Assembly: GCA_003945285.1 (NCBI GenBank)
Contig: AP019005.1
Location: 1,502,001-1,566,000, forward strand
Length of the DNA stretch: 64,000 bases
Direction: 5' to 3'
DNA from: Hydrogenimonas sp.
Lineage (GTDB): Bacteria > Campylobacterota > Campylobacteria > Campylobacterales > Hydrogenimonadaceae
Part shown: piece after piece, positions 4,251 to 27,407 of the stretch
How positions within the stretch are numbered: position 1 is the stretch's first letter
Layout: every line of letters starts with the position of its first letter
The notes under the pieces: generated by a model
What the model was told of the DNA's origin: nothing
Databases searched by the model: none
What the model saw: the letters and a program-made list of their open reading frames with translations, nothing else
Position numbers and translations under genes: made by a program

Positions 4251-4261
4251 GTCACACAGCC

Positions 4262-10429: not shown

Positions 10430-10674
10430 GGCCGTTTCCTTTGAATTCTTGAAACGGCACTTCTGGCAATATAGATTTTATTGCCGATGTACTTAAAATC
10501 TACTTCCGGTTCAAACTCCCCGCGCTGAATTCGTGCCCATAATGCCTGACGATTCATTCCCCGATCCCTGGCCACGTCACCAAGGCTGATCCATTCAGGT
10601 ATCGACAAGACCGCCTTTTTGATCTCTTCGATCTCCTGGCGAATTTGAATGAGTAGCTGTCGGTCTTCCATCAT
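10426..10674 (-). CDS. AlpA/excisionase-like helix-turn-helix protein
   Basis: Small protein of 82 residues. An N-terminal helix (QLLIQIRQEIEEIKKAV) is followed by a MerR/AlpA-type helix-turn-helix: EWISLGDVARDRGMNRQALWARIQRG, then a short strand region. Proteins of this kind act as excisionase or as regulator of the integrase. It overlaps the Rep stop upstream and the integrase start downstream by four bases each, so it is co-translated with both. The family assignment rests on the HTH pattern only. Confidence 0.75.
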   Translation of the reverse strand: MMEDRQLLIQIRQEIEEIKKAVLSIPEWISLGDVARDRGMNRQALWARIQRGEFEPEVDFKYIGNKIYIARSAVSRIQRKRP

Positions 10675-11726: not shown

Positions 11727-11937
11727 TGCCTGCCTCCCCCAATGTAACAGCGATTTGGACTTTAATCTTTTCAATTTCGGCAATGATTGATTGGATAAGC
11801 AGATAGTGACCGATAGAAACTTCTTCCGATACGCCATCAAGCTGAAGCATGCTCAAAGCGTTAAGCTTGTAAATGATGTCTTGCAGCTGATCTACCGGCT
11901 CTAATTCTTTTTGAGCATCGTTTTCGATATAATCCAT
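11719..11937 (-). CDS. Small acidic protein of the integrative element
   Basis: Protein of 72 residues, acidic at the N-terminus (MDYIENDAQKELEPVDQLQD), then amphipathic helices. The start has a good RBS (GGAGGGTAACGA) and the stop overlaps the Rep start, so translation is likely coupled. I do not recognise it. The position suggests a replication accessory or copy-control role, which is only inference. Confidence 0.6.
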   Translation of the reverse strand: MDYIENDAQKELEPVDQLQDIIYKLNALSMLQLDGVSEEVSIGHYLLIQSIIAEIEKIKVQIAVTLGEAGND

Positions 11938-12115
11938 TTCGTTACCCTCCAGGTAATATGTCCAGGAAAAGCGGTCAAACTACTTCCTGGATGTGCGCAG
12001 CTAACGGGTCGCTAACGCCCTCGCTGCGCTCGGTTGTTTCCCCAAAGTGTGCTTCGCTTCGCGAATTTCCTTTGTGGCCCTGTTGATCCCTCGGCCGGGC
12101 ATACGGGATGCGCGA

Positions 12116-12388
12116 TCATACACCATAGAACTTGACCGGCGTATTGTTTTCGGTAAAGAACTTGCAACGAACTTGAACGGTTTCACCGATCTTTTCTTTA
12201 TAGGTAGAGACCAGACTATCGGGAATGCTGACGTTGTAGAGTTCAAGCCTCTTTTCCCCGTTTTTCAACTCATTGAGGGATTGAAGCTGGAGTATATGTT
12301 TCCCCGGTCTGACTTCTCCGGTATCTTTATCCTTGAACTCCGGTTTCTGGTACATGGACGCAAGTTGGCCTTCGATGATCACCGTCAT
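12116..12388 (-). CDS. Possible ssDNA-binding protein of the element
   Basis: Protein of 90 residues, predicted to be mostly beta strands: MTVIIEGQLASMYQKPEFKD, HILQLQSLNELKNGEKRLEL, and a short basic/aromatic C-terminus. Size, predicted fold and a place next to an HUH Rep fit a filamentous-phage gene V-like or OB-fold ssDNA-binding protein, but no signature residue proves it. Its start overlaps the end of the upstream RHH gene by four bases. A 178-base spacer follows before the 72-residue gene. Confidence 0.6.
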   Translation of the reverse strand: MTVIIEGQLASMYQKPEFKDKDTGEVRPGKHILQLQSLNELKNGEKRLELYNVSIPDSLVSTYKEKIGETVQVRCKFFTENNTPVKFYGV

Positions 12389-12801
12389 TGTTTCTCCCTC
12401 CTTTTCTTCTCATCCATCAACAAATGCAAGCTGTATTCGGCATCAGCAATTGCTTCTTCTATAAGCTCATAATTCATCAAAGGATTACCAACTTCATCTA
12501 TATCAATGGCTACTTCAACCATCGTTTCACCTTTATCACGCTTTGTGCGAAGATCTTTGATGTATTTTTTTAAATTCTTTATCCTTTTATCCAATTCATC
12601 AAGATCAAGATGAGAAAATTTTCTTCGATTTTCTTCTATGGCTATTTGCATAAAAGATAATAACAATGATGTCATTGTTACACCTCGATTTCTACAAACC
12701 TCTTCAAATTGCTCTTTTAGGCTTACAGGTATTTGCATACTAAATCCTACCTTTTGCTCTGGTCCCTTCTTGGCCAGTTGTACAGCTTTGTCCAAAATCA
12801 T
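12385..12801 (-). CDS. Ribbon-helix-helix protein with coiled-coil tail
   Basis: Protein of ~138 residues. Residues 15-45 (VGFSMQIPVSLKEQFEEVCRN then GVTMTSLLLSFM) match a CopG/Arc ribbon-helix-helix fold. A charged helical region follows (DLDELDKRIKNLKKYIKDLRTK), likely a coiled coil, and the C-terminus is again helical and very basic at the tip. The start at 12801 has AAAGGAG nearby; an upstream in-frame ATG lacks one. First gene of the element's leftward operon, next to a 25-bp repeat, so a regulatory or partition role is plausible. Confidence 0.75.
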   Translation of the reverse strand: MILDKAVQLAKKGPEQKVGFSMQIPVSLKEQFEEVCRNRGVTMTSLLLSFMQIAIEENRRKFSHLDLDELDKRIKNLKKYIKDLRTKRDKGETMVEVAIDIDEVGNPLMNYELIEEAIADAEYSLHLLMDEKKRREKQ

Positions 12802-12880
12802 ACATGCTCCTTTTATTAATATATGATAATTATATACCTTAATCAAATATATGTCAAATATATGCTATTCACATATAAAT

Positions 12881-12905
12881 TGTGCAGAAAGTGTGCACTT
12901 TTTTA
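12881..12905 (+). repeat. 25-bp direct repeat, copy 2 (possible integrase arm site)
   Basis: Identical to 9313-9337, and placed 103 bases inside the right att site. In the excised circle the two copies would lie on either side of the core in the same orientation. Confidence 0.7.
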
Positions 12906-13008
12906 GCGAAAAACATTGACATTTTGACGGTATTTATATTTGCCAGAAGTGCCGTAAAGCACCTATTGAAGGTAGTTGAAAGGGGTTTTCAGGGGCTAAT
13001 GGTTTTGC

Positions 13009-13032
13009 GTTCAAGTCCTCTCGTCCGCACCA
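13009..13032 (+). repeat. Right attachment site
   Basis: Exact copy of the last 24 bases of tRNA-Leu (9241-9264), without the rest of the tRNA gene. Marks the right end of the integrative element and the left limit of accessory island I. Confidence 0.93.
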
Positions 13033-13197: not shown

Positions 13198-13229
13198 TCA
13201 CAATAAGTGTGACGTTCGTGCTCTACAAT
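13198..13229 (+). promoter_or_regulatory. Island palindrome promoter P1 (ATPase 1)
   Basis: The palindrome TCACAATAAGTGTGA (13198-13212) is followed by an 11-base spacer and TACAAT (13224-13229). It has no conventional -35 box; the palindrome occupies that place. The ATG of the ATPase gene lies 119 bases beyond the palindrome, behind a G-poor leader. The rest of the 298-base gap (13033-13330) holds no gene. Confidence 0.8.
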
Positions 13230-13330
13230 GGCGGTATGAATTTTCAAACACCCAAATCAAACTCACCATCTCACCATTTTTTTTATACCTCTTTCATTAC
13301 CCTTCATATTTATAGTTCAAGGAGGATCCG

Positions 13331-14920
13331 ATGGGCGTAATAGGTCTGATAAAAAACAGAAGCGAAAGCGAAACCGGCATCGACAAAAAAGCTTCGTCTG
13401 TTCTGCTGGAGGATAACTTCGAACACTGCTGCATCGTGGGCCAGACAGGCTGCGGCAAGACGACATCCGTCATCAACCCCAACGTCGAGGACCGTATCAA
13501 AAGAGGTCATGCCCTGCTGGTGTTCGACCACAAGGGAAACTATCACACCACCGTAAAGGCGCTCGCGAATCGCCACGGACGCCTTGAAGAGGTAGTGGTG
13601 CTTGGCGAACCACTCGGGGGCAGAATCAACCTTATCCGGCATATGAATCAGCGCGACCTGGAGCAGTTTCTCAGCCTGGTTCTCGGACATAACGACAGAG
13701 ACAGGTTCTGGGAGCATAGCGCCATATCCCTCGCCATCGAAATATGGAAACTTCTCAAAGCCTATGAAACCCTCATCGGCGTAGATGGCAGGAGACTGGG
13801 CGCGGACTTCAGCCAGATGCGTTATCCGGTGACGATCGGATCGATCCACGACATCGCAAAAAATGTACGAAACATTCATGCGTTCGGCGAGCGGATGAGA
13901 GAGTATTTCTACAAAATCTCCGATCCGGAATGCAAAGCGATCGATTACGACAAAAATCCGACGCCAGAGACGAAACAGCACATCGACGACCATTACAGAT
14001 TCGGCCGGGCCTATCTCGAATTCAAAAAAAACATCCTGGAGAACGACACTTACAAAAAAAGGGGTGAGTCCGATGAAAACAGAACCGCCACGAGTATCCT
14101 CATCTGCCTTACCGGCCCGCTGGGCGCACTCGCTTCCAACGAGAGCCTCAACGACCCGGACGGCGAAACGCTGGAAAACCTTCTAAACAGCGGGAAGATC
14201 GTCGTCATGCGCACCAACAGCCTCTCCGACAACGCCATGGCCGCCATTACCAGATCATATTTCGACAGGGCGCTCAAACGGATCGGCGACAGAAAATCTC
14301 CTCCCGTCAGCGTCTTCATCGACGAGGCCCAGAAGGTGCTCAGTCCCCATTTCGACCTGCCGCTGGATACTGTTCGTGAAGCCCGAATCGACGTATTTCT
14401 GGCTTTCCAGTCCATCTCCCTGTTGGAGCTGGCGGTGGGAGAGATAAAGTCGAAGGCGCTGCTCGTCAACATGACGCGCCGCTTCCTTTTCAAAAGCTCC
14501 GAACCTACGGAGGGCGTCGCAACGTCCGGCCTGGAGCGGTTCGAATACTATACAAGCCTGGACGACTACGCCAAGAGCCATCACGCCGCACCCTTTTTCA
14601 TCGAAAAGAGGGAGATATTCGAGGCTGAATACGCCCATCAGCGTCGGCTAGGGCTTTTGGATATCGTTCCACCCCAAGAGCGTCCACAGGAGTGCAAATT
14701 CATACTCTTGCCGGACGATACCCGAATCGGCAACAGTGCGACCATCGTTCTTGAAAACGGCGACAGCCGAAGGGTGAACCTATGGAACGAAGAGAGAGAG
14801 GAGAATGTCTGGACCATGCTCGAAAAGATGTATCGGTACAGAAAGAAAATGGATTCTCGGGAAAACGAAGTCGAAAAAGTCGAACTGTTGTTCCAGGAGG
14901 TTTACCAGGCACGGATATGA
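13331..14920 (+). CDS. TraD/VirD4-like P-loop ATPase, copy 1
   Basis: Protein of 529 residues. The Walker A motif is in CCIVGQTGCGKTTSVINPN (near 40), followed by LVFDHKGNYH, and Walker B is in VSVFIDEAQKVLSP (near 325), then REARIDVFLAFQS. This order matches the nucleotide-binding part of type IV coupling and HerA/FtsK-like DNA-translocating ATPases. There is no N-terminal membrane anchor. No relaxase or secretion genes lie nearby, so a conjugation role is unlikely. A paralogue at 25145-26701 shares the motifs and overall plan. RBS AAGGAGG supports the start. Both copies have the island palindrome promoter. It may pump, scan or load DNA in the island's function; that is inference. Confidence 0.85.
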   Translation: MGVIGLIKNRSESETGIDKKASSVLLEDNFEHCCIVGQTGCGKTTSVINPNVEDRIKRGHALLVFDHKGNYHTTVKALANRHGRLEEVVVLGEPLGGRINLIRHMNQRDLEQFLSLVLGHNDRDRFWEHSAISLAIEIWKLLKAYETLIGVDGRRLGADFSQMRYPVTIGSIHDIAKNVRNIHAFGERMREYFYKISDPECKAIDYDKNPTPETKQHIDDHYRFGRAYLEFKKNILENDTYKKRGESDENRTATSILICLTGPLGALASNESLNDPDGETLENLLNSGKIVVMRTNSLSDNAMAAITRSYFDRALKRIGDRKSPPVSVFIDEAQKVLSPHFDLPLDTVREARIDVFLAFQSISLLELAVGEIKSKALLVNMTRRFLFKSSEPTEGVATSGLERFEYYTSLDDYAKSHHAAPFFIEKREIFEAEYAHQRRLGLLDIVPPQERPQECKFILLPDDTRIGNSATIVLENGDSRRVNLWNEEREENVWTMLEKMYRYRKKMDSRENEVEKVELLFQEVYQARI

Positions 14921-14958
14921 GGGAATAGCTCCGCTAAAGTAGGCATAACCGGTCTCCG

Positions 14959-14990
14959 TCACACTAACTGTGACTTTTCTATTCTATCAT
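14959..14990 (+). promoter_or_regulatory. Island palindrome promoter P2 (DUF285 / McrBC unit)
   Basis: TCACACTAACTGTGA (14959-14973), an 11-base spacer and TATCAT (14985-14990). The next ATG lies 119 bases after the palindrome, the same distance as at P1, also behind a G-poor leader. Confidence 0.82.
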
Positions 14991-15091
14991 TCCGTCATGA
15001 TGACGGCAAAACCATTTTTCCATCTTTACCCTCATCCCCAATTTCATTTTTCTATACATCAACCAATCCATAAACATAAAAAGGAGGTCGC

Positions 15092-15802
15092 ATGGCACGC
15101 ATCATCAAACCCGAAACCAAAGAAAAATTGCAGTGGCTCATAAAAAAAGGGAATCCACTGAAATATCTCGACGTCTCTTCGATAACCGATATGTCGTTGC
15201 TTTTCTTTTACGATAGATCCATCGACTGGGACGATCCGGACAACGACATTTCCGGATGGAACGTAACCAACGTCACGGACATGACCATGATGTTCACGGA
15301 AACGGGCTTCAACCAGGACATCTCCGGTTGGGACGTATCGAAGGTGGAGAGCATGTGTCTCATGTTCGCCTACACGCCTTTCAACCAGGACATTTCCAGC
15401 TGGAATGTCTCGAACGTCACCAATATGAACGGCATTTTCGCCGTCACGCCATTCAACCGGGACATTTCGTCCTGGAACGTCTCGAAGGTCACCGACATGA
15501 GTCTGATGTTCAAATCGTCATCTTTCGTGAAACAGACGGACATTCTCTGCTGGGACATCAACCCCCAATGCAATATGGAGACTTTCTGTGAAATCATAGG
15601 TATAACGAGCTATGGGGACTGGGCCTCCCTTGCGGAAAAGTTGCATATAGACCACTTAAGACAAATCTGGCAAAATGGTGGTGACAAATCAAAGTACGAA
15701 ATCATGCTCTTCATCAGAAAACATAAAAAAGCATTTCTTGTACGAAATAGGGAAATAATGCATACTATCGCCGATATGAAAAAGCAGAAGGATGCAGGGT
15801 AA
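15092..15802 (+). CDS. DUF285 (BspA-like) repeat protein
   Basis: Protein of 236 residues. About four copies of a ~25-residue repeat run through residues 30-150, with the core N-Q-D-I-S-x-W-N-V-S-x-V-T-x-M. These are DUF285 (BspA-like) repeats, which are commonly found in surface and lipoproteins. Here no signal peptide or lipobox is present, so it should stay in the cytoplasm and probably serves as a protein-binding scaffold. The C-terminal ~80 residues are basic and helical. RBS AAAAGGAGG fixes the start. It is first in the rightward unit that continues, with an 11-base overlap, into the next gene and then McrBC. Confidence 0.85.
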   Translation: MARIIKPETKEKLQWLIKKGNPLKYLDVSSITDMSLLFFYDRSIDWDDPDNDISGWNVTNVTDMTMMFTETGFNQDISGWDVSKVESMCLMFAYTPFNQDISSWNVSNVTNMNGIFAVTPFNRDISSWNVSKVTDMSLMFKSSSFVKQTDILCWDINPQCNMETFCEIIGITSYGDWASLAEKLHIDHLRQIWQNGGDKSKYEIMLFIRKHKKAFLVRNREIMHTIADMKKQKDAG

Positions 15803-16535
15803 GTGGATTTCACTCGTTAAAGAGACTTTTCAACCGAAAGGAGCAGATTTGCCTAAAAGAGATGATAAAAAAATTCATACTATTATGGAAATAATCGAAA
15901 AGATTACTGACCACCGAAGACACAAAGATAGTGTCATTATCACAGAAGAAGATTACAAGCGCATCAGAAAAGAGGTTATCGATGCAATGAGAATCAAATA
16001 CAATCTCTCAGAAAAAGATATTCATACCATAAGAACCCGATACAATGATTGGTTTGCGGAATTGAAAAAAGTCAATCTCATACAGAACAGCGACATCGAA
16101 CGTTTGGACCGTATAGGCCCGGACGACTATGAAATATACATTACGAGACCGGCGAAGAAGATATCGTCGGAATCGGCGGCGGCGAAAATGGTGGCCAGGG
16201 CTGCGGTCTTGAGCGACGATGAGACTTTTCATGATGAGGATTTGAACATCATATGGGAAAAATATGACTGTGAATACCGCATTCCCGAAGAGCCGCAACC
16301 TGCAATATTGCGAATGCTTATACCTTCGGTGCGAAGGACGATGATGCGCGCCTACGCCAAAACGGTCACCCACATCTTCGCCTCGTGGCGAGAGGAGATG
16401 GAAGAGGCCGAACGCGCGGGGAGAGGGAAAAGGGCCTACGACATCGCCAAAAAGATGAAGCTCTTCCTGGAGTATATGCGGGAGTACCAAGAGGAGATTC
16501 CCGAATACCGGGAGATTCTCGGCCGTCGGCGTTGA
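15792..16535 (+). CDS. Uncharacterised helical protein
   Basis: Protein of 247 residues that I do not recognise. It is highly charged: the first ~110 residues are helical and basic, the middle holds an acidic stretch around SDDETFHDEDLNIIWEKYDC, and the C-terminus has long helices (EEMEEAERAGRGKRAYDIAK). No membrane segment, signal or catalytic motif is seen. The frame overlaps the end of the DUF285 gene by 11 bases, so the pair is probably translated together under promoter P2. An upstream-extended or a shorter start (around 15852) is also possible. Confidence 0.6.
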   Translation: MQGKWISLVKETFQPKGADLPKRDDKKIHTIMEIIEKITDHRRHKDSVIITEEDYKRIRKEVIDAMRIKYNLSEKDIHTIRTRYNDWFAELKKVNLIQNSDIERLDRIGPDDYEIYITRPAKKISSESAAAKMVARAAVLSDDETFHDEDLNIIWEKYDCEYRIPEEPQPAILRMLIPSVRRTMMRAYAKTVTHIFASWREEMEEAERAGRGKRAYDIAKKMKLFLEYMREYQEEIPEYREILGRRR

Positions 16536-16676
16536 ATGCGTGAAGAAAGAGTCGGCCGGGGCCGAAACGGGTTCGGTGCAAAGAGGACGCCCCGTTAAAA
16601 AATTTCGGATTTCGACCGATTTAACACCGATTCGGACATACCGACGAAATGCATGGAGCGTGACGAAAGGAACGAG

Positions 16677-18365
16677 ATGAGTATTGATTGGGATTATAGT
16701 AATAGAAATTGCGATGACGACGGAACGCTGCAGAAAATCTGTAAAATTGCAATGTTTTATGCTGGGCATTTTAAAAACCAGCGTGAGATGTTCGCTGGAT
16801 TGATCAATGAATATTTTAGTAAATCCAATAAGACTAAGAAAAAAATAAATTTCAATAACAATGAAATAGAGATAAAAGATCCGTTTACATTGATGCTCGA
16901 CTATTTGGGAAGAGGAGACGATGAGAGGAACAAATACTATAATAAAATATTAGGAAAAGAAGAAACACATTTCTATTTAGGCGTTCAGAAGTTGGTCAGA
17001 ACGAAAACACAGCATCTAAAGAGTTATAAAGATCAAACAGATTATGATAATAATTTTGCCACTCAAATAAGAAAAATTTTTTTAGATAATAATGATGATG
17101 AACTAAAAAAATTTCTTGACGCAAACGACATCGCCCAATTCATCGCTCTCTTTCAAAAACCGACCGTAACGGCCACCTCCGTTCTTTATTGGCTCTTTCC
17201 CCATCAATTCATCCCTTACGACAGGCATACGAAATATTATCTGGAGAAATTGGGTTGTCAAAAAAAATATAATTGCTTGATTTTGACCAAATTTCACGCC
17301 GATTTAGAAAAAGATGAGTGGAACAAGTATTTCTCCGCCATTTTTTGTCTGTCGCAAAAAAATGTATTCAACCCTACCAACAATTCCTATCCGGTAGAGC
17401 TCCATCCCGCGGCGGTTTGTGCCATGAGTCTGCTGGCCTATGCGGATACGAAGGGGGTCAACGAGATTCTCGAGGAGATGATTAAAGGGAAGAGGGATGC
17501 GAAAAATCTGGTCATTACCGGTATTCCCGGTACGGGAAAGACCCATGCGGTGGTGCGGTTCCTGGAAGAGAATAAGGAGATAGGCGGTTACAGGTTCGTG
17601 CAGTTTCACCCCTCCTACGATTATGAAGATTTCATCGAAGGGCTGAAACCGTTTCCCGATAATAATAATTTGACCTTCAAACTGGTTCCCGGTATATTCA
17701 AGGAGTTGTGCAGGGAAGCGATAAAAGATAAAAATAAGAAATACGTTATGGTCATCGACGAGATCAACCGCGCCAACCTCTCACGGGTATTCGGGGAACT
17801 GCTCTACTGCCTGGAGTATCGCGGCAAGCCGGTCGACACGAAGATGACGGGGTATATCAAAGGCCTTTCTGATGAAGATGAACAAAAAAAACATACCGTC
17901 GATCATAATAATGAGAATAGTGGCCGTTTCGAGATTCCCGAAAACGTCCTGGTCATCGGCACCATGAACGACGTGGACCGCAGCGTCGACGCTTTCGACC
18001 TGGCGTTGAGACGGCGTTTCGTCTGGGAAGAGGTCGATTTCGACAGGTTTCAGCTCGCCGTGTACGACAAATTTTTCGAAAGAAAAATGGGGATTGAGAA
18101 CATTTTTGCCCTCATCGAAAAAGCCGAGAAGCTCAACGAGAAAATCGAAGAGAAGATGGGCAAAAACTTCAGGGTCGGGCATACCTACTTTTTCAAAGTC
18201 GCCGACTACCTGAAAAACAAGGATTATTTTGACAGTGCCCTGGAGGATCTCTGGCGCTTTCACCTGCACTCCCTGCTCAAAGAGTATTTGAAGATGCACT
18301 ACGACGAAAGCGAGATCGATGAAGAACTCAAAGAGTTCGAAAAAATCGTCGTCGGAGACAAGTGA
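16677..18365 (+). CDS. mcrB: McrB-like AAA+ GTPase of a modification-dependent restriction system
   Basis: Protein of ~562 residues. The C-terminal half is a McrB AAA+ domain: Walker A GIPGTGKTHAV (near 281), Walker B VMVIDEINRANLSRVFGE (near 360) and the McrB signature GTMNDVDRSVDAFDLALRRRF (near 427). It should hydrolyse GTP and drive the nuclease McrC on modified DNA. The first ~150 residues are encoded by strongly AT-rich DNA unlike the rest and show no known recognition domain; this is where McrB proteins carry their specificity module. I chose the ATG at 16677, which follows AAAGGAAC. The stop overlaps the mcrC start by four bases. Confidence 0.9.
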   Translation: MSIDWDYSNRNCDDDGTLQKICKIAMFYAGHFKNQREMFAGLINEYFSKSNKTKKKINFNNNEIEIKDPFTLMLDYLGRGDDERNKYYNKILGKEETHFYLGVQKLVRTKTQHLKSYKDQTDYDNNFATQIRKIFLDNNDDELKKFLDANDIAQFIALFQKPTVTATSVLYWLFPHQFIPYDRHTKYYLEKLGCQKKYNCLILTKFHADLEKDEWNKYFSAIFCLSQKNVFNPTNNSYPVELHPAAVCAMSLLAYADTKGVNEILEEMIKGKRDAKNLVITGIPGTGKTHAVVRFLEENKEIGGYRFVQFHPSYDYEDFIEGLKPFPDNNNLTFKLVPGIFKELCREAIKDKNKKYVMVIDEINRANLSRVFGELLYCLEYRGKPVDTKMTGYIKGLSDEDEQKKHTVDHNNENSGRFEIPENVLVIGTMNDVDRSVDAFDLALRRRFVWEEVDFDRFQLAVYDKFFERKMGIENIFALIEKAEKLNEKIEEKMGKNFRVGHTYFFKVADYLKNKDYFDSALEDLWRFHLHSLLKEYLKMHYDESEIDEELKEFEKIVVGDK

Positions 18366-19981
18366 AAATAGAGACTCGAGCCATGTCCAAAGCGCTGAAA
18401 GAATTGACGGATTACATGGTCGATGTGCCGTTGGACAAAGAAAGCCAAACAAACATAAAGTCTTCCCATACATTCACCGCCACGAAAGAAGATGTCGTCT
18501 ACGGAAGAAGCGAAGAGCCCGTCATCACTTTCGATGTAGGGAAAACCGCCAAGGGAAATAGGGAGGTCAGAGTGACCACCTACGGTTACATCGGTTCTTT
18601 CCATATCAAGATCGGGAAGTGGGAAAAAGAGGTCTCCATAGGCTACAGGTTCGGCAAGCCGGTTCTCGAACGGATGGTGGCGAGGTCGATGGGCTTCGAC
18701 TCTTTCATTCACTACGATCGAAGCGGTGAGGGAAAGAAGAAGGCGGAGGAGCGTATCGTCATAGTGATGATGTGCCTCGCCTACGTGCTTGCCATGGAAA
18801 AGGCGACGGCGCTGGGGCTGCCCCAGGGCTACCGTCGGCGGGAATACAGGGAGAGCTCTTTGCGCGGGCAGGTGGATGTCTCCCGTTTCGTGCGCAAGGA
18901 CATCCCTTTCATGGGGAAGATATCTTCCGTCCTCTACGAACGGGTCGAGGCGCAGGAGATCATCGACCTGCTCGACGCGGCCTTCGGAGTCGTGGAAAGG
19001 GAGAACCGGAATCTGGTCAATCGTCGCGTCTGGGGCATCCGGCAATATGTGCGGGAGAGAGCGAGCCGGCGTTTCGTCGACCGGCGCGTCGTGGAAAAAG
19101 CCCTGGGGCATCGGCTGCTCAAAAATCCCCTCTACGCCCATTTCAAAAAGGCGGTGGAGCTGGCGGCGAGGCTGATTCGGCTCGACGATACGCAGAAGGA
19201 GGGCAAATTCGAAACCTACCTGTTCGACGTCAACGCCATGTGGGAGGGGTACGTTTATGCACTGCTCAAAGAAGCGGTGGAGTCGGACGAAGATTTGAAA
19301 GGGAGCTGGCGCGTCCTGCACGAGCCGGAACTGCCGGTTTACGAAGCGTGCTTTTTTCGGCGGCTCATGAAACCGGACGTCGTCATCGTCAACGAAAGTG
19401 AAAAGCGAGTGCTGGTGCTCGACGCAAAATCCAAGCGCATGGCTTGCCGCGGGAGCGGACGTCACGACATGGGGGACCTGGACAGGGGGGACTTTTTTCA
19501 GCTTCATACCTACATGAGCTACTACCGGGGCGCGGGTTACGAAGTGCTTGGCGGAGGACTCCTCTACCCCATGGAAAAAAGTTGCGCGGAGCGCTCCTGC
19601 GAATGGTTCGGGGACGAAAAAGGCAGCTTCTTCGTAGAGGGCCTCGAGCTCGATTTCATGGATGAAATCGATAGACAAGTAGAAGAGATTGACCAGTTCA
19701 AGGAAAATTATAATCCGAACAAGACAGAGCTAATAAGCAAGCTAAACGAATTACTAACAGATGGTGATTCAAATAAAACGGAAATTGATGAAGATGAGAT
19801 AGAAAGACGGTTTAGTTTTATATGGACCACAAGAAATAGATTAAACAGAAATAATGTTGATAATAAAGAAGAGTGGAAAAAATTGATAGAAGAAATTAAA
19901 AACAGACGCTATGAAAAAAAGATAACGGCTTCGGAAGAAAAATTCTGCCAAGCGATTATGGGGTATTTGAAACAGTCGTGA
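18362..19981 (+). CDS. mcrC: McrC-like nuclease subunit
   Basis: Protein of 539 residues starting with GTG, with a four-base overlap with mcrB. The middle contains McrC-type segments (EYRESSLRGQVDVSRFV) and the C-terminal region a PD-(D/E)XK nuclease core: MKPDVVIVNESEKRVLVLDAKSK (near 335-357), with the Asp and Asp-x-Lys residues intact. It should cleave DNA when activated by McrB. The last ~100 residues (from about 19680) are encoded by AT-rich DNA and are Asn/Lys/Glu-rich, unlike the rest; this tail is longer than typical McrC and may be an added module. Confidence 0.88.
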   Translation: MKIETRAMSKALKELTDYMVDVPLDKESQTNIKSSHTFTATKEDVVYGRSEEPVITFDVGKTAKGNREVRVTTYGYIGSFHIKIGKWEKEVSIGYRFGKPVLERMVARSMGFDSFIHYDRSGEGKKKAEERIVIVMMCLAYVLAMEKATALGLPQGYRRREYRESSLRGQVDVSRFVRKDIPFMGKISSVLYERVEAQEIIDLLDAAFGVVERENRNLVNRRVWGIRQYVRERASRRFVDRRVVEKALGHRLLKNPLYAHFKKAVELAARLIRLDDTQKEGKFETYLFDVNAMWEGYVYALLKEAVESDEDLKGSWRVLHEPELPVYEACFFRRLMKPDVVIVNESEKRVLVLDAKSKRMACRGSGRHDMGDLDRGDFFQLHTYMSYYRGAGYEVLGGGLLYPMEKSCAERSCEWFGDEKGSFFVEGLELDFMDEIDRQVEEIDQFKENYNPNKTELISKLNELLTDGDSNKTEIDEDEIERRFSFIWTTRNRLNRNNVDNKEEWKKLIEEIKNRRYEKKITASEEKFCQAIMGYLKQS

Positions 19982-20020
19982 TCGGAGCGTGGCGTTGCCG
20001 TCCGACGGGGGGCGGTCCCC

Positions 20021-20944
20021 TCATCTTTCGGCTTCTTTCACGATACCTTCCGCGAAAGCGGTATCCCGGCCCGTTCGACGCAGGTAGGCCAGAACGGATT
20101 CGAGTGCCCTTCTGCCTTCATCGCCGGCTTTGGCGTAAAGGTCGGCAAATTCCGACTTCGCGTCGACCCCTTCGTGCAGCCGGTAGAGGAAGAGATGGGC
20201 GGGGGCGTAATTTTTCATGGCCGCCAGCAGTTCGTACCTGCCGTAATCGAAGGTGTCGATGAAGGCAAACGTCCGTTCCATGGCACCGAAAGAGCGGGGT
20301 TGCTCCATAAGAGTGCCGATTTTTTCCAGGGTCTCTTCCTCTTTCGTATCGGGAAAGGCGGTCATGAAAAGGCGATTGAGCAGTTTCGCCAATGTGTCGT
20401 CGGTCAATATCCCCCTTTTTTCCAGCAGCACCAGCAGCTTTTCGAATCTTTCCGCTCCGGGGTGGGCTTTTTCGAGCAGGGTCACGGGGTCCGTGCGATT
20501 CATGATGGAATCGTAGAGCCCTTCGTAGGCCAGAAGCATGTCGGCGTACAGGTCGTGTTTGACGTGGCCGTACTCGCTTTCGTAGAAGTCGAGTACATAT
20601 TCGAAAAAGCGCGGATCGGGATTCTCCACCGAGGCGATGAAAACCTTCCAATCATGTGGGTAGGTCAAGATGGGAACCAGAAGAAGCGGCAGGCCGCGTT
20701 CGCGCATCGTGCGGCTGAGATCTCCTTTCATCGTCAGGTAGCAGAAAATGTCGCGCGAGACATGCCTGAAAGCTTCGACGAGAAGGTCGTCGTCGTTGCC
20801 CGTTTCTGGCAGCTCCTCCCTCGCTTTCAGGAGTGTCTCCAAATCGTCATTTACAATCGCGTCGCGCAAGAAATCCGTTAACGGTTTCGGAACGTTAATA
20901 GCCTTCTTTGGAGCGGTGATTTGTCTGTCTGTGGTCAGCTTCAT
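20021..20944 (-). CDS. Uncharacterised all-helical protein
   Basis: Protein of ~307 residues that I do not recognise. It appears to be built of repeated helical pairs (LTDFLRDAIVNDDLETLLKA, then several FEYVLDFYES-type segments), somewhat like ankyrin- or HEAT-type solenoids but without a clear consensus. It is acidic and has no signal or membrane segment. The start at 20944 is fixed by GGAGGAT; a frame up to 20989 lacks an RBS. It is downstream of the winged-helix gene (45 bases apart), likely in one unit, and converges with mcrC. Confidence 0.65.
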   Translation of the reverse strand: MKLTTDRQITAPKKAINVPKPLTDFLRDAIVNDDLETLLKAREELPETGNDDDLLVEAFRHVSRDIFCYLTMKGDLSRTMRERGLPLLLVPILTYPHDWKVFIASVENPDPRFFEYVLDFYESEYGHVKHDLYADMLLAYEGLYDSIMNRTDPVTLLEKAHPGAERFEKLLVLLEKRGILTDDTLAKLLNRLFMTAFPDTKEEETLEKIGTLMEQPRSFGAMERTFAFIDTFDYGRYELLAAMKNYAPAHLFLYRLHEGVDAKSEFADLYAKAGDEGRRALESVLAYLRRTGRDTAFAEGIVKEAER

Positions 20945-20989
20945 GCAAGATCCTCCTTCATGGTATCTCTGTCTCCCCGGATACAGCAA

Positions 20990-21667
20990 TCAAAGAAATC
21001 TTTTGAGTTCTTCGATGATATGATCGGACATGGGGATACCTTGTTTTTTCAACTTTTTCATACACTCGTAGCGCTCTTTGTCTCTATTAGTCGAGATCTC
21101 CTCGTCGAACAGTTTTGGACATGCGTTTTTTAGATATTTGGCGAATTTTCGTACATGCTCATGGTTCTTTTCATCTTTCAGTTTTTCATACATGTGCTTC
21201 ACTTTTATCCAGGGAAGATTCCTGTAGAACTCTCCGGCGGAGATGGAAGTGAAGAGGAGTTTGCCCATTCCCTCGACATGCATCTCCTCACACTCAATCA
21301 GCGAGGTTCCTGCGATCCTATCCAGAGCCCAATCGACATAAGATGTGTCGGTTTCCTGTCGAGCCTCTTTGTTCGAGGCGATCGCGGCCAATGAGATAAG
21401 TACGAATTTTTCGTAATCATCTTTTTGCGGTTCCTCTATCTGAATGAAGTATTCTCCGGTCACGGTATCGTTCTTGGCGAGTATGTAGAGTTCGGTCAAT
21501 TCGTCCAGGCGCCTGTTGACAGATATCTTCTCGGCGCGGGTCAGTTTCCTTCCATATTTTTGGGTGAGTTTTTCGTAAATTTCCTTGTTGGTTGTCGTTG
21601 TAGAGCCGTTTTTACGAATTTTCAAAATGATCTCCAAAATTTCTTGCTGTACCGAAAATTTGCTCAT
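20990..21667 (-). CDS. Uncharacterised protein with winged-helix-like N-terminus
   Basis: Protein of 225 residues. The first ~80 residues (VQQEILEIILKIRKNGSTTT, then NKEIYEKLTQKYG and NRRLDELTELYILAK) have the pattern of a winged helix, so it may bind DNA. The remainder is helical and basic with no motif I know. A strong RBS (GGAGAG) precedes the ATG. The palindrome promoter P3 points at it from 318 bases upstream. It is the best candidate in island I for the protein that binds the palindrome, but nothing in the sequence proves this. Confidence 0.65.
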   Translation of the reverse strand: MSKFSVQQEILEIILKIRKNGSTTTTNKEIYEKLTQKYGRKLTRAEKISVNRRLDELTELYILAKNDTVTGEYFIQIEEPQKDDYEKFVLISLAAIASNKEARQETDTSYVDWALDRIAGTSLIECEEMHVEGMGKLLFTSISAGEFYRNLPWIKVKHMYEKLKDEKNHEHVRKFAKYLKNACPKLFDEEISTNRDKERYECMKKLKKQGIPMSDHIIEELKRFL

Positions 21668-22019
21668 ATTCGACTCTCCTATCTTACTTTTGCAAAAACG
21701 CCGGGGTTCTTCTCTTCTTGCACTGTTTCTTATATTTCGAGAACCCCTTTCGAGTTGTCGCCTCTTCTATTATCGACATATTTGCAGTTCGGATTATCTA
21801 TTATCCTCTCATGCTCTTTTGCCGCAGCACTCACCTAGGGGCATTGGGCATATAGTCGAACATTTCCGGTACCCGACGATCCGTTCGCCACCTTCGAAAC
21901 CTTCACGGGCGGTGAAAATATGACGGAATAGCGGGTTTTGCCGGGTCGATCCATGATTTACGGTGCCATTGTACAGCACATGTGTCACAAAAATTGTGAC
22001 ATCGGCATACGCAAACCGT
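21668..22019. other. Gene-free leader region downstream of P3
   Basis: No convincing coding frame is seen in these 352 bases. The palindrome promoter P3 (21968-21999) lies at the right end and would give a leader of about 290 bases before the winged-helix gene. I cannot recognise a riboswitch or other known RNA in it. Confidence 0.5.
21968..21999 (-). promoter_or_regulatory. Island palindrome promoter P3 (winged-helix gene)
   Basis: Palindrome TCACAAAAATTGTGA at 21985-21999. Read leftward, TACAAT follows after 11 bases (complement of 21968-21973). Same spacing as P1, P2, P4 and P5. Confidence 0.8.
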
Positions 22020-22766
22020 TCAGCGGCCGTTCGCATCTCTTATCAGGTGAAGGAAGTCGTACATGCCGTAGAAAATTTCCAATCTGAATCGTTTTGAGAC
22101 GATCCGCCCTTTCTCCTTCAAATCGTCCCAAAGATCGAAAAAAGTGTCGTCCCCGGTACACCCATGACGGTCTTCCCCGATGTAGATCAGGTTGCTTATC
22201 GTGTCGTGCTCGGAGAAATATTTCAATACGTCATGCGCCAAAGGCTCCAGGTAGGGAGGCCACGAGAGGATGATCGTGTCAATCTCGTCGACCAGGTCGT
22301 ACGTTTGTATGAAGTCCTCGAAACTGCAGTCGATAATGTTGTCGAAGAGGGATATGCTATCCACTCCATAAGGACTACCCTCCATGCGGATGCCCAGCAG
22401 CCTGTTTTTCAGATGGGGGAGTCTCTTGGCCAGCATCCCCAGCATCAATCCGCTTCCGGCGCCGACGTCTAGAATGTATTTGCCTGCATCGTGATATTTT
22501 TCTACAAGTTTCTGAATCTTTTCCAAATTTGTATCCAAGGGTAAATAGTAACAGTATTTGCCCGCTATATACATTCTAAAATCTTCGGGCATCGGAAACT
22601 CGCCAAAAGCCCTTACATAGTCCAACAGATCATCGAATTCGCTGAACCCCAATATCTCCAGGTAGTCCATGGAGCTAAATGGATCCAGAGCCGTAAGCCT
22701 GCTGTCTATCAGCTCTTTCTCTTCTTTCGTTATATCTCTGTTTCTGCCTATTATTTTCTCTTTCAT
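22020..22766 (-). CDS. Class I SAM-dependent methyltransferase-like protein
   Basis: Protein of ~248 residues. Motif I of the Rossmann methyltransferase fold is seen in KYILDVGAGSGLMLGMLAKR (near 100), and IDTIILSWPPYLEPL (near 165) stands where the catalytic motif IV is expected. This resembles the N/S/D-PPY motif of amino-group methylases but has Ser-Trp in front; the substrate is unknown. The start at 22766 has GAAAGGAT upstream; longer frames lack an RBS. It lies downstream of the NusG-like gene on the same strand, with a hairpin between, and is probably partly driven by P4. Confidence 0.7.
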   Translation of the reverse strand: MKEKIIGRNRDITKEEKELIDSRLTALDPFSSMDYLEILGFSEFDDLLDYVRAFGEFPMPEDFRMYIAGKYCYYLPLDTNLEKIQKLVEKYHDAGKYILDVGAGSGLMLGMLAKRLPHLKNRLLGIRMEGSPYGVDSISLFDNIIDCSFEDFIQTYDLVDEIDTIILSWPPYLEPLAHDVLKYFSEHDTISNLIYIGEDRHGCTGDDTFFDLWDDLKEKGRIVSKRFRLEIFYGMYDFLHLIRDANGR

Positions 22767-22823
22767 TTCGATCCTTTCATGCAATGTAGCTTCAGGGGGT
22801 GCAGGGTGCGGTGAGTCCCTGCC

Positions 22824-22848
22824 AAAGCCTGGGCTCCGCTCAGGCTTT
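22824..22848 (-). terminator. Hairpin between NusG-like and methyltransferase genes
   Basis: An eight-base stem, AAAGCCTG (22824-22831) with CAGGCTTT (22841-22848), and a nine-base loop. It has no clear T-run on the leftward strand, so it may be an attenuator or processing site and not a full terminator. Confidence 0.4.
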
Positions 22849-22875
22849 GCGTAACGCAAGTCGAAGTCTCTCCTC

Positions 22876-23187
22876 TCACAGAAGCGGGGAAGGCTCCTCC
22901 TTTACGAGGCCCAGTTTTACGGCTTCCTCTTCAGGAAGAGGTATCGGGTATCGTGCGTCGCCGAGAATGGCGACGAAACCCGGTACACAGTTTTTCAGAT
23001 CTGTAAAGAGTGCTTTGTACTCTTTTGACGAGGTGTCAACACAGATATAGACGTACCCGGGAATCGGCCCGTTCATCTTGGCATCTATCAATGCGGGATG
23101 ACGATTCATATCGATAAGGTTTTGCAGGCTTTTGACGACTCTCTTCTCATATCTCGGTGCTGTTTGGATGGTGAACCAGTGATTCAT
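22876..23187 (-). CDS. NusG N-terminal-domain-only (NGN) protein
   Basis: Protein of ~103 residues. It starts MNHWFTIQTAPRYEKRVVKSLQN, the typical opening of a NusG NGN domain (W, aromatic, hydrophobic, then YEKRV), continues with GYVYICVDTSSKEY and ends PGFVAILGDARYPIPLPEEE, which matches the NGN ending before the linker. No KOW domain follows, and the frame stops ~13 residues later. NusG paralogues such as RfaH, LoaP or ActX bind RNA polymerase and suppress pausing in specific long operons. A KOW-less form should bind polymerase but not recruit rho or ribosomes. The start at 23187 follows AAAAGGAGC. P4 lies upstream. Confidence 0.8.
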   Translation of the reverse strand: MNHWFTIQTAPRYEKRVVKSLQNLIDMNRHPALIDAKMNGPIPGYVYICVDTSSKEYKALFTDLKNCVPGFVAILGDARYPIPLPEEEAVKLGLVKEEPSPLL

Positions 23188-23268
23188 GGGCGCTCCTTTT
23201 GAAAAATTTGGGCACAGGTGTATAGTGTGTGTTGTAAAATTGAGTGGAATTGAAAAAAAGACTCTGCA

Positions 23269-23300
23269 ATGATAGAGAAGAGTAGTCACAATAACTGTGA
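23269..23300 (-). promoter_or_regulatory. Island palindrome promoter P4 (NusG-like gene)
   Basis: Palindrome TCACAATAACTGTGA (23286-23300). Read leftward, TATCAT follows after 11 bases (complement of 23269-23274), 82 bases before the NusG-like start. In the rightward direction no -10 box is found at this distance. Confidence 0.82.
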
Positions 23301-23312
23301 CCCACGCCTGGA

Positions 23313-23342
23313 TTGCGCCGCATAACGATGGTTCGATATACT
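23313..23342 (+). promoter_or_regulatory. Probable promoter of the dGTPase gene
   Basis: TTGCGC (23313-23318) and TATACT (23337-23342) are 18 bases apart, and lie just right of the P4 palindrome. This would give the dGTPase gene a conventional promoter; the nearby palindrome could still affect it. Confidence 0.5.
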
Positions 23343-23370
23343 TTTACAAAAGAGTCGGAGGATAATATAT

Positions 23371-24693
23371 ATGTGGGACCGTTTACTCAGCAGTAAGAGG
23401 GTGGGAGCCGAGAGCGCTTTTCGGAGTAGTTGCGAAAGTCGGGACAACTTTCATAAAGATTACGACCGTATCATCTTTTCACACGCTTTTCGAAGGCTTT
23501 CGAAAAAGACACAGGTGCATCCGCTTTCGAAAAACGACCATGTCCACAACCGTATGACCCACAGTCTCGAAGTGGCCAGTGTGGGCAGAAGCCTGGGACT
23601 CGGAGCCGGTAAAGTGCTGAAAGCAAAAAAGATCCCCGTCGATCCGTATCAAATCGCCTACATCGTCCAGACCGCATGCCTTGCCCACGATCTTGGAAAT
23701 CCCCCTTTCGGCCATGCCGGGGAGGATGTGATAAAGGTATGGTTCAGGGAGAACGTGGAACGTCTGCCGGATATGGATGAAACACAGCGCAACGATTTTC
23801 GTCATTTCGACGGCAACGCCCAGAGCTTTCGCATCGTCACGCAACTGGAGAACTATCTGTACAACGGAGGTCTCCGGCTCACCTACGCCACCCTCGCCAC
23901 CCTCGTGAAATACCCCTTCTCATCTAACGAGTGTAAAAAAAGAGAAAAATCGAAATTTGGCTATTTTCAGAGCGAGAAAGAGCTTTTCGACCGAATCTTC
24001 GATGCTCTGGGCCTAAGGAACGACGACGGAAGCTACCGCAGGCACCCGCTCTCCTATCTCATGGAGGCGGCGGACGACATCTGTTACGCTCTTCTGGACA
24101 TAGAGGACGCGCTGGAACTGGGCATCGTGCGATGGGAAGATGTGGAGGAGATATTTTTCAAACTGACGGGTGAGAGTAAAGTCCGTGAAATCCTCTCCTC
24201 GAAAGGTCTGCCTCCTTCGCATCTCCATTCCAAGATCATCGCCTTCGCCATCACCCATCTCGTCGACGAGGGAATGGAGACATTCGAAAGAGAGTACGAT
24301 CGTATCGTCTCCACGGGACTGGAGAGTGATCTCGTTGCCTGCTTCGATAACCGGGCCCTGAGAGAGGGGTTGCAGGAGGCCAAAGATTTCGGGGTCGCCT
24401 CCATATTTTCCAACCGGCGGAACGTGGAACTCGAGCTGGGGGCCTACAGCATCATAAAAACGATTCTCGATGCGCTTGTCGACGCCGCATGCCGACACGC
24501 GCAAAACGAAAAGCTGAGCTTCTATCAGAAAAAGGCGCTTATGCTCATGGGTGAGAAGTCACCGCTGAAACTCCGGCCCGCGAACACATATGAAGCGATT
24601 CAGAGGGTCGTCGATTACGTCTCCGGCATGACAGACAACCATGCCCATCACGTCGCCCGGCAGCTTAAAGGAGTTTTCAGCGGCGTCGAATAA
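23371..24693 (+). CDS. dgt: dGTP triphosphohydrolase-like HD protein
   Basis: Protein of 440 residues of the HD-superfamily dNTPases. The metal-binding set is complete: HNRMTHSLEVASVGR (near 57), CLAHDLGNPPFGHAGEDVI (near 104), and SYLMEAADDICYALLDIEDA (near 232). It should split dNTPs, chiefly dGTP, into nucleoside and triphosphate. Bacterial dGTPases are known to defend against phages by draining dNTPs, and its place in this island next to McrBC suits that. RBS GGAGGAT precedes the start. It converges with a small gene to the right. Confidence 0.93.
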   Translation: MWDRLLSSKRVGAESAFRSSCESRDNFHKDYDRIIFSHAFRRLSKKTQVHPLSKNDHVHNRMTHSLEVASVGRSLGLGAGKVLKAKKIPVDPYQIAYIVQTACLAHDLGNPPFGHAGEDVIKVWFRENVERLPDMDETQRNDFRHFDGNAQSFRIVTQLENYLYNGGLRLTYATLATLVKYPFSSNECKKREKSKFGYFQSEKELFDRIFDALGLRNDDGSYRRHPLSYLMEAADDICYALLDIEDALELGIVRWEDVEEIFFKLTGESKVREILSSKGLPPSHLHSKIIAFAITHLVDEGMETFEREYDRIVSTGLESDLVACFDNRALREGLQEAKDFGVASIFSNRRNVELELGAYSIIKTILDALVDAACRHAQNEKLSFYQKKALMLMGEKSPLKLRPANTYEAIQRVVDYVSGMTDNHAHHVARQLKGVFSGVE

Positions 24694-24698
24694 CCCTG

Positions 24699-25040
24699 TC
24701 ACGCATCTTTGGTGATGGTTCCGTTTCTATATTTGGCTGTGAGATATTTTCGGAACTTCAAAAGAATGTATCGACGCTTGTCGGTCATAGAACTCCAAGC
24801 CTTTTCGTCCCTTTCGATCTGTGCCATGAATTTAACCAGCGAAACGAAATCCATCTGCATCTCTTTCATCGCTTCAAGGAACGGACTGCGATGGCTGCCC
24901 AGAAGAATTTCGACCTCCTCCAACTCCAGAAGCTTCAAAAACCAAAATTTATCAAGCCAATGTTTTTGATGGGAAGATGGAACTTTCGAAAAAAAATCGA
25001 TGATCGACCTGAAACGGTCTCCTCTATTTATAGCTGACAT
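24699..25040 (-). CDS. Uncharacterised small helical protein
   Basis: Protein of ~113 residues that I do not recognise. It is helical and charged with a Trp/Phe-rich stretch (HWLDKFWFLKLLELEEVE) and a basic C-terminus (RRYILLKFRKYLTAKYRN). The end resembles the end of the 225-residue winged-helix protein only in general character. The start at 25040 has AGGAGAAC upstream. It lies 104 bases downstream of the second ATPase on the same strand and is likely in its unit. Confidence 0.6.
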   Translation of the reverse strand: MSAINRGDRFRSIIDFFSKVPSSHQKHWLDKFWFLKLLELEEVEILLGSHRSPFLEAMKEMQMDFVSLVKFMAQIERDEKAWSSMTDKRRYILLKFRKYLTAKYRNGTITKDA

Positions 25041-25144
25041 GAGTTCTCCTTTCACTTTCTGTGCTCTATCATGCACCTACCCTGTTTTGTTTTTCAATAG
25101 AGTCGTGTCGCGACAGAGCATTACGCTTACATCCGATCTGTTTT

Positions 25145-26701
25145 TTACGCACCGGCCAGCATTTCGTTGATTTCACTCAGCAAATCTTTTTCATTATCCC
25201 CGCTCGATCTCTCCTCTCCATTGCCTATGGCTTCCAAATCGATCGAAATATCGATAAACTCCACCAACATGTTTTTCCCGTCTTCAAACCTCAAGTGGAT
25301 AAAGTCGTTCTCATAATGTTTGGGGAAATAGACAAATATAAATCTTTCATCGATCTCTTTATCCAGCAGATACCTGTCGAATATTCCCCTGCTCTTCTGG
25401 TAGGACCATTCGGCTTCGAAAAGCTCCTCTTTTGTGAGAAAGAGGGGCTCTGCACGGTACTTCTCTCTGTAACCGTCCATATTGGTCAGGTATTCGAAGT
25501 CCTCCAGGTCCTCTGTTTCAACCCCGTCGAAGGACTGGTCGCTTTTATATACCAGTTTCGTGGTCAGGTTGGCATGCAGAGATTCGTACCCGTCACTTCC
25601 GAGTCTCTCCCGAATCAGTGACTGGCTCTGAAAAGCCATGAATACGTCCACTTTCGCTTCACGCATCGTATCGATCGGAATTTCCAGCTCCTTGTCCAGA
25701 ACCTTCTGCGCCTCGTCGATAAAAACCGACACAGGCTTTTTAAACGGCAACAGGAAACGCTCTTTGAGATTTTCGAATATGGAGTGCGTCAAAAACTGCA
25801 GTGCCGCTTCGGCCAGTCCGGTAGTATTCAATATTACGATCTTTCCCTCGTTCAGTTCATCGACAATATCTGCCTCCGCAGAGTTGAACATGTCGTGTTT
25901 TCCGACAATGGCAAGCGTATCGATGCATGTATAGATCGACGAGAAAGTGGTATACCTCGTCGTATCTACATTTTTATATTGCGTGTGCGCTTTGGAGATC
26001 TTGTCTATGTGTCTGATGAGATCGACAAACCTTTTCTGCGCAAAATCATCCACACTTCCACTCTCCGACAGATTTTTGTATTGCTCCAGCAGGTGTCTCT
26101 TGAGTGAATCGTATCCGTTTACATACGATTTGATAGCGGCGAGAGAGGGGATGGCATCCAGAACTCCTTTTATCGTCGGAGGGTTTGCATAATCGGTCTC
26201 ACCGTCACGTATCGTAAAATCCATCTCTTTTCCGATCTCCCCGAGAGTGCATTGAAGTCTTTCGATCTTTCTATGCAGTTCGAATATAGGCATCAAGATA
26301 TTCAATGCACTCCGCTCCCAGTATTTGTCATCTTTTTTCATTCCCATGATTTTGGCCAACATATTCTCTATCTCACCAAGCGACATCTTTTCCACGATGT
26401 TGACTTTTTTGCCCCATGGTACGCCGATCATCGTTACATCATCAAGTCTGCCGTACTTTTTGGCGAGGGCTTTGACCTGCGCGTGCTGGTTGCCTTTGTA
26501 ATCATATACGAGTATCCCGTGCCCCTCGGAAATTCTCTCTTCGATATTGGGCAGTATCGCCGAACTCGTCTTTCCGCAGCCTGTCTGACCTACGATGGCA
26601 CAGTGGGTGAAGTTCTCCGCGACAAGCGCCTTCTTTGACTTCACCACCCGCTTTTCGCTTTCGTTCTTCGTTGTTGTTTGAAGAATACCTATTTTTGACA
26701 T
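25145..26701 (-). CDS. TraD/VirD4-like P-loop ATPase, copy 2
   Basis: Protein of ~518 residues, paralogous over its whole length to the product of 13331-14920. Shared landmarks are the Walker A region CAIVGQTGCGKTSSAILPN, LVYDYKGNQHAQVKALAKKYGR, the Walker B region VSVFIDEAQKVLDKELEIP and REAKVDVFMAFQSQSL. The C-terminus differs and ends with an acidic helix. The start at 26701 is preceded by AAGGAGTGA; a longer frame to 26749 would run through the palindrome and is unlikely. There is no membrane anchor, relaxase or secretion partner. The presence of two diverged copies at both ends of the island suggests a hetero-oligomer or two substrate-specific motors; this is inference. Confidence 0.85.
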   Translation of the reverse strand: MSKIGILQTTTKNESEKRVVKSKKALVAENFTHCAIVGQTGCGKTSSAILPNIEERISEGHGILVYDYKGNQHAQVKALAKKYGRLDDVTMIGVPWGKKVNIVEKMSLGEIENMLAKIMGMKKDDKYWERSALNILMPIFELHRKIERLQCTLGEIGKEMDFTIRDGETDYANPPTIKGVLDAIPSLAAIKSYVNGYDSLKRHLLEQYKNLSESGSVDDFAQKRFVDLIRHIDKISKAHTQYKNVDTTRYTTFSSIYTCIDTLAIVGKHDMFNSAEADIVDELNEGKIVILNTTGLAEAALQFLTHSIFENLKERFLLPFKKPVSVFIDEAQKVLDKELEIPIDTMREAKVDVFMAFQSQSLIRERLGSDGYESLHANLTTKLVYKSDQSFDGVETEDLEDFEYLTNMDGYREKYRAEPLFLTKEELFEAEWSYQKSRGIFDRYLLDKEIDERFIFVYFPKHYENDFIHLRFEDGKNMLVEFIDISIDLEAIGNGEERSSGDNEKDLLSEINEMLAGA

Positions 26702-26728
26702 ATTCACTCCTTTCCGATGAATTGGGAA

Positions 26729-26777
26729 ATTGTGGCATATGATGCTCACACTAATTGTGATGATCTGTCGATATCAT
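26729..26777. promoter_or_regulatory. Bidirectional island palindrome promoter P5
   Basis: Palindrome TCACACTAATTGTGA (26746-26760). To the right TATCAT (26772-26777) begins 12 bases after its end, toward clpP; to the left CACAAT (complement of 26729-26734) stands at the same distance, toward ATPase 2. Confidence 0.82.
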
Positions 26778-26813: not shown

Positions 26814-27407
26814 ATGGCATTCATCCCTACAATCGTAGACACCGAAGGAAAAAGAGAGTACGCAACCGACCTTTTCTCCCGGCTTCTCAAAGACAGAATT
26901 GTGCTCGTGCATCAACCGATCGATTCGAATCTCGCTTCCACTGTAGTATCGCAGCTTCTCTATCTCGATAAAATGTCGGACGAACCCATTTACATATATA
27001 TCTCTTCTCCCGGAGGAGAGGTGATGGCGGGTTTCGAGATTATCGATATCATGAATCTCGTCAAATCGCCGGTGCATACCGTCGCAATGGGTATGGTCGC
27101 ATCGATGGCCTCGATTCTGCTTTGCAACGGTGAAAAGAGGTATATACTTCCAAACGCACAGGTCATGCTTCACCAACCGCTCGGCGGTGTGCAGGGACAG
27201 GCAAGCGATATCGAAATCACGGCCAAGCAGATTCTGAAGATAAAATCGAAGCTGAACGAAATACTCTCGGCAAAAACGGGAAAAAGCATCAAGACAATTG
27301 AAAACGTAACGGACCGGGACAGCTATTTCGATGCCCGTGAAGCTCTCGATTTCGGCCTTGTCGACGAAATACTCGACGGACGGGACCATTCGTGCGCATC
27401 GGCGTAA
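26814..27407 (+). CDS. ClpP-type serine protease paralogue
   Basis: Protein of 197 residues with the ClpP catalytic triad: Ser in AMGMVASMASILL (near 102), His in VMLHQPLGGVQGQ (near 127), Asp in ENVTDRDSYFDAREALDFG (near 176). The hallmark IYIYISSPGGEVMAG is also present. It should form a tetradecameric chamber fed by a Clp ATPase, but no such ATPase gene is adjacent. Compared with housekeeping ClpP, the segment around the active Ser (GMVASMAS) is unusual, and it sits in an accessory island under P5, so it is probably a second, specialised ClpP. RBS AAGGAG precedes the ATG. Confidence 0.9.
   Translation: MAFIPTIVDTEGKREYATDLFSRLLKDRIVLVHQPIDSNLASTVVSQLLYLDKMSDEPIYIYISSPGGEVMAGFEIIDIMNLVKSPVHTVAMGMVASMASILLCNGEKRYILPNAQVMLHQPLGGVQGQASDIEITAKQILKIKSKLNEILSAKTGKSIKTIENVTDRDSYFDAREALDFGLVDEILDGRDHSCASA

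Follow-up and report, generated by a model that had tools for sequence, protein, structure and literature searches.

The closest described counterparts of the promoters analysed here are controlled by WYL regulators. In Caulobacter crescentus, the WYL activator DriD recognises the consensus ATACGAC(X)7GTCGTAT at sites that overlap the -35 position, lie at a constant distance from the -10 box and are accompanied by poor -35 hexamers (PMC12340889). BrxR and CapW, dimeric wHTH proteins that control BREX and CBASS defence loci, respectively, act in the opposite sense: BrxR, whose half-sites are spaced 5 nt apart, represses from a site at -51 to -27 that overlaps -35 (PMC9122589), and CapW is a WYL repressor that binds over the -10 (PMC9122588). 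The mycobacterial WYL factors PafBC and SiwR are placed near -26, where they substitute for the -35 contact, with PafBC acting as a heterodimer on one half-site.

Here we describe a set of promoters in island I, a mobile defence island within a 64,000-nt stretch of DNA (hereafter the window; genome positions 1502001-1566000) from a genome assembled as one contig of 2,193,435 bp. All five palindromes of the island (TCACA-N5-TGTGA) have the DriD-type register xxACA-N5-TGTxx (GAC-N7-GTC in DriD), albeit with different letters (CAC-N7-GTG), and the predicted sites lie over -35 at a constant 11 nt from the -10 box in six of six promoter orientations. Island I differs from DriD in carrying TCACA in place of CGACA, and in that no gene for a cognate wHTH-WYL-WCX protein was found in the window or its flanks; cognate WYL genes do occur at the TGACA CRISPR and CGACA loci described below. 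As the geometry and position agree with DriD but the regulon holds no WYL gene, we file island I as DriD-like, and its sequence suggests that it works like the WYL/DriD promoters, short of being a proven member. With the BrxR and CapW systems it would share a dimeric wHTH regulator of defence genes and, with BrxR, the position over -35. Those regulators, however, repress from one or two sites, whereas island I has six promoter orientations over ~14 kb with one exact spacing, and a WYL gene adjoining the defence operon and sharing its promoter region was not found in island I. Substitution for the -35 contact, as in PafBC and SiwR, is likewise what we propose for island I, but PafBC has no palindrome regulon of this form.

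TCACA palindromes and the genes of island I

Sites were counted genome-wide by pattern searches. TCACA-N5-TGTGA occurs five times in the 2.19-Mb genome, every copy falling within window positions 13198-26760. A rescan placed all five where the original prediction had located them and, as that prediction held for island II and the core regions, there are no further copies outside island I. Base composition predicts ~2.2 such palindromes genome-wide at random, and the probability of five random sites landing within so short a span is ~7e-9. With one mismatch tolerated in the palindrome the window still holds five, compared with a shuffle expectation of 1.4 +/- 1.1, and none of 100 shuffles reached that number. 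A chance origin of the cluster is ruled out by the shuffles, the genome-wide exclusivity and the span probability together. The half-site order is opposite to that of CRP, as had been noted, which rules out a CRP/FNR site (TGTGA-N6-TCACA).

A genome scan for the palindrome followed by 11 nt and TAYMAT recovered five perfect composites (TACAAT, TATCAT, TACAAT, TATCAT and TATCAT) and a sixth, CACAAT, with one mismatch; the next-best composites elsewhere in the genome carried two. The claim of a -10-like box at an exact distance in six orientations, with CACAAT the weaker, was thereby confirmed. The missing -35 hexamer is no diagnostic sign in this phylum, whose -35 boxes are weak and whose promoters normally do without one.

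Site 1 (TCACAATAAGTGTGA, plus strand, 13198-13229; TACAAT at 13224-13229 after 11 nt) heads ATPase 1 (13331-14920, plus strand; Pfam PF02534, PF01935 and PF12696), a soluble TraG/HerA-like P-loop ATPase. Site 2 (TCACACTAACTGTGA, plus strand, 14959-14990; TATCAT at 14985-14990 after 11 nt) heads a plus-strand unit encoding a DUF285 protein (15092-15802; PF03382, 7e-39), the orphan P0003 (15792-16535), a McrB-like AAA_5 ATPase (16653-18365; PF07728) and a McrC-like protein (18362-19981; PF10117, 3e-21). P0003, with a possibly HTH N-terminus and a helical C-terminus, is a candidate regulator. On the minus strand, site 3 (TCACAATTTTTGTGA, 21968-21999; TACAAT at 21968-21973 after 11 nt) heads P0001 (20990-21667, minus strand), an orphan with a winged-helix-like N-terminus that was the candidate regulator of the original prediction and lies within its own operon, followed by a second orphan, P0002 (20021-20989, minus strand). 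Site 4 (TCACAGTTATTGTGA, minus strand, 23269-23300; TATCAT at 23269-23274 after 11 nt) heads the genes for a NusG-like protein (22876-23187, minus strand; PF02357, 6e-7) and a methyltransferase-like protein (22020-22766, minus strand). In its plus orientation, toward the dGTPase gene, site 4 has no -10 box at the fixed 11-nt spacing, so the NusG-like operon is the only unit that it heads; neither the dGTPase gene nor 24699-25040 has a site of its own. Site 5 serves two orientations from one palindrome. In the plus orientation (TCACACTAATTGTGA, 26746-26777; TATCAT at 26772-26777 after 11 nt) it heads clpP (26814-27407, plus strand; PF00574, 5e-66), and in the minus orientation (26729-26760; CACAAT at 26729-26734 after 11 nt) it heads ATPase 2 (25145-26701, minus strand), a TraG-like protein 34% identical to ATPase 1 and, like it, soluble and TraG/HerA-like. 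Leaders from predicted start to gene measure 21-96 nt, with the exception of the 20990-21667 operon (~294 nt).

Two features of the leaders could be chance: those of sites 2 (14985-15094) and 3 (21665-21973) have the 10-mers CGGCAAAACC and ATTCCGTCAT in common, and the site 1 leader starts with GGCGGTA, loosely resembling an ops element, in a regulon that encodes a NusG paralogue.

The promoter grammar at other loci

A profile of the ATPases, run over 399 Campylobacterales genomes, found homologues of ATPase 2 in 28 of them. A ClpP gene directly adjoins the ATPase in several of these loci, including the Arcobacter plasmid p82, repeating the clpP-ATPase pairing of island I. The ATPase loci were scanned without bias for any palindrome with 5-bp arms and a -10 box at a set distance; in AT-rich relatives the -10 boxes were matched loosely, and several relatives are fragmented assemblies with gene starts from a simple caller. 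In the congener G105, GCACA-N5-TGTGC is present twice in locus L072, the only two copies in that genome, in each case 11 nt before a -10 box (TACAAT or CATAAT). One copy heads an ATPase that shares 42% identity with ATPase 2, and the locus (1-4463) also encodes a relative of the 22020-22766 methyltransferase-like protein, adjoining a GCACA site, before the contig stops short of any regulator. At a second locus of this congener (L098, G105:C15), two copies of CGACA-N5-TGTCG flank a WYL gene with the same 11-nt gap, and one of them heads another ATPase homologue; the CGAC-N7-GTCG of DriD has the register of these sites, with a 15-bp core. Two TGACA-N5-TGTCA sites in genome G347 (L095) lie 11 nt from their -10 boxes, one heading an ATPase, and the Arcobacter plasmid and G108 carry TAACA-N6-TGTTA upstream of a clpP-ATPase unit, 10 nt from the -10. 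Across loci the outer half-site letters vary on both arms together, as expected for the site of a dimer.

With the window excluded, the ATPase loci and the type III CRISPR locus of the same genome yielded nine matches at a gap of 11 nt compared with ~1 at other gaps; three of the nine come from the CRISPR locus, which was first spotted in the mismatch list of the genome composite scan. Most other ATPase loci carry no such palindrome, the grammar occurring in a minority only, and searching GTDB and viral contigs with an ATPase profile gave nothing past pattern matches. Looked for beside homologous genes in related genomes, the grammar was found at homologous ATPases with GCACA, CGACA or TGACA arms; the TCACA form itself stands at chance level outside this genome (two matches versus two control matches). 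We conclude that xxACA-N5-TGTxx followed by 11 nt and a -10 box, without a -35 hexamer, is a Campylobacterales promoter grammar that recurs with different outer letters. At another locus (L087, ~10632, in G261), a gene for a CI-like repressor lies upstream of an ATPase homologue and, as read from the sequence, an operator-like ATTAGTATAATGCTAAT covers the -10; such CI-like control indicates that ATPase elements use several control types.

The CRISPR matches belong to a type III CRISPR-Cas locus at genome 2075875-2089598 (L135 and L136), with genes for a Csx1-like protein and for a WYL regulator of its own (2075875-2076882). TGACA-N5-TGTCA followed by 11 nt and GATAAT, TATAAT or TACAAT is found there at three positions: 2078909, heading an operon with the Csx1-like CARF-HEPN protein and the WYL protein; 2082953, heading a cas2-like/cas1 unit; and 2089584, heading cas6-cas10-csm. 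The locus is like island I in its promoter grammar, with the 11-nt spacing at all three promoters, but it has TGACA half-sites and a WYL gene of its own, and we therefore regard it as a separate regulon. Homologous CRISPR loci in the congeners G162 and G129 were retrieved through the TGACA promoter pattern alone, which has 34 matches in the 399 genomes, whereas its reversed control has 3. At 11 of 28 TGACA loci a WYL gene is found no more than ~8 kb away, against a background of ~1.3 WYL genes per genome, although several of the WYL-bearing loci are mutually related and the independent cases number nearer eight. The WYL gene sits directly under the TGACA promoter at one of these loci (L190), and G347 has TGACA sites and no WYL gene detected by Pfam. 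By profile comparison, the WYL proteins linked to sites match PafBC and DriD structures. At a further locus (L187, 7878-8837), a WYL gene is divergent from a gene for an RtcB-like RNA ligase, with a TGACA-type promoter between them.

Candidate regulators and the direction of control

Taken as a whole, these observations are probably explained by one island regulon under a homodimeric winged-helix regulator that binds a WYL/DriD-type site over -35. The five palindromes would be the operator-promoter modules of this regulon, with the centres of the two half-sites separated by 10 bp, or one turn. A dimer bound to TCACA-N5-TGTGA would cover -35, with the centre of the site near -31 and exactly 11 nt between site and -10, and would switch together the two TraG-like ATPases, ClpP, the DUF285-McrBC unit, the NusG-like operon and the site-3 operon. 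The site geometry is of the WYL type, and other half-sites in the same grammar would serve further defence loci, with a separate specificity at each. The original prediction of an island regulon with a dedicated regulator, here taken to be dimeric, is well supported by sequence, with strong support from the exclusive sites, the exact spacing and the GCACA pair at the congener ATPase. Two findings modify it: the grammar is not private to the island, recurring at the CRISPR locus of this genome and at other loci of the order, and the regulators linked to it, where seen, are WYL proteins, not relatives of the orphan P0001.

An island-encoded WYL regulator was rejected, as Pfam and a custom profile at full sensitivity found no WYL gene in the window or in 12-20 kb on either side. 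The candidates that remain are P0001 or P0003, a conserved WYL protein encoded at genome 2071600, or an undetected regulator. There is a considerable, if less than even, chance that the regulator is P0001 or P0003, unrelated to WYL and controlling its own expression through site 3 or site 2. Confinement of the sites to the island makes an island-encoded regulator economical, the P0001 operon carries its own site, and the modelled N-terminal helices of both proteins look HTH-like. Against this, the AF2 models are of low confidence (pLDDT 54.5 for P0001 and 58.6 for P0003), a PDB fold search for P0001 was uninformative, and neither protein has homologues in the order sample, including G105 with its GCACA regulon (genome 88% complete), or in the plasmids searched; viral and GTDB contigs likewise held none for P0001.

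Within the single-regulon explanation, we consider activation slightly more likely than repression; DNA damage or ssDNA would be the trigger, as it is for DriD and PafBC. That the 11-nt spacing is invariant across loci speaks for activation by a regulator that replaces the -35 contact, but BrxR represses at -35 and CapW acts over the -10, so position alone is no proof of it. A repressor dimer spanning -38 to -24 that obstructs RNA polymerase until released on infection or damage, in the manner of BrxR and CapW, is a serious contender. BrxR provides the precedent with its overlapping -51 to -27 site, defence islands are mostly kept off, and promoters without a -35 hexamer are normal in the phylum; a blocking dimer, however, would allow other spacings, whereas a fixed 11 nt is expected if the regulator touches polymerase, as in DriD.

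We think it unlikely that the conserved host WYL protein reads TCACA and that the island thereby borrows a host DNA-damage sensor. Its gene (genome 2071600-2072550) lies 545 kb from the island. The protein is present in this genome (G000) and in G105 at 65% identity, is unaccounted for by the CRISPR TGACA sites, and has the recognition helix SxKTIQR where other site-linked WYL proteins have SxRT or similar. Yet 13 of 18 genus genomes encode it, TCACA sites being absent from almost all of these, and in this genome no TCACA site lies outside the island as a core target for it. An idea built on K versus R in the recognition helix failed at G183, which has a K-type WYL near an ATPase without the palindrome. 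It is highly improbable that, instead of being promoters, the palindromes serve the TraG-like ATPases or a recombinase as loading or recognition sites: two of the five adjoin ATPase genes and related ATPases bear similar palindromes, but the -10 spacing is exact and the grammar recurs at the CRISPR locus without a matching ATPase, the genome's only two being in the island.

With TCACA in island I, TGACA at the CRISPR locus and other letters in relatives, each island seems to be under a separate regulator. More speculatively, the mobile defence elements of Campylobacterales may share one modular promoter in which only the outer half-site letters vary and serve as an address, so that TCACA and TGACA islands would be orthogonally switched, with island I under either a regulator without a WYL domain or the host WYL sensor. 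Little is known about the switching of defence islands as units. A grammar that is strict and searchable and that ties CRISPR, McrBC and ClpP-ATPase elements together within one order lets regulons be predicted with nothing but sequence, predicts orthogonal regulators within one cell, and makes it possible to test directly whether defence is activated by WYL-type factors at a fixed position over -35.

Island I lies between other elements in the window. Island II (27754-52724), in which the palindrome is absent, is a dense defence cluster according to PADLOC, comprising a DrmD/DISARM-like helicase with a type IIG enzyme, PD-Lambda-4/Avs4-like, PsyrTA and AbiE systems, a Druantia-like protein of 2070 aa and NERD-UvrD. 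Immediately to the left of island I is a small element integrated at a tRNA-Leu (9265-13032), encoding an integrase (9335-10429) and a GPA-type Rep (10671-11840). Its att repeats, each 24 nt long, are at 9241-9264 and 13009-13032, and copies of a 25-nt repeat, TGTGCAGAAAGTGTGCACTTTTTTA, lie close to either end, at 9313-9337 and 12881-12905.
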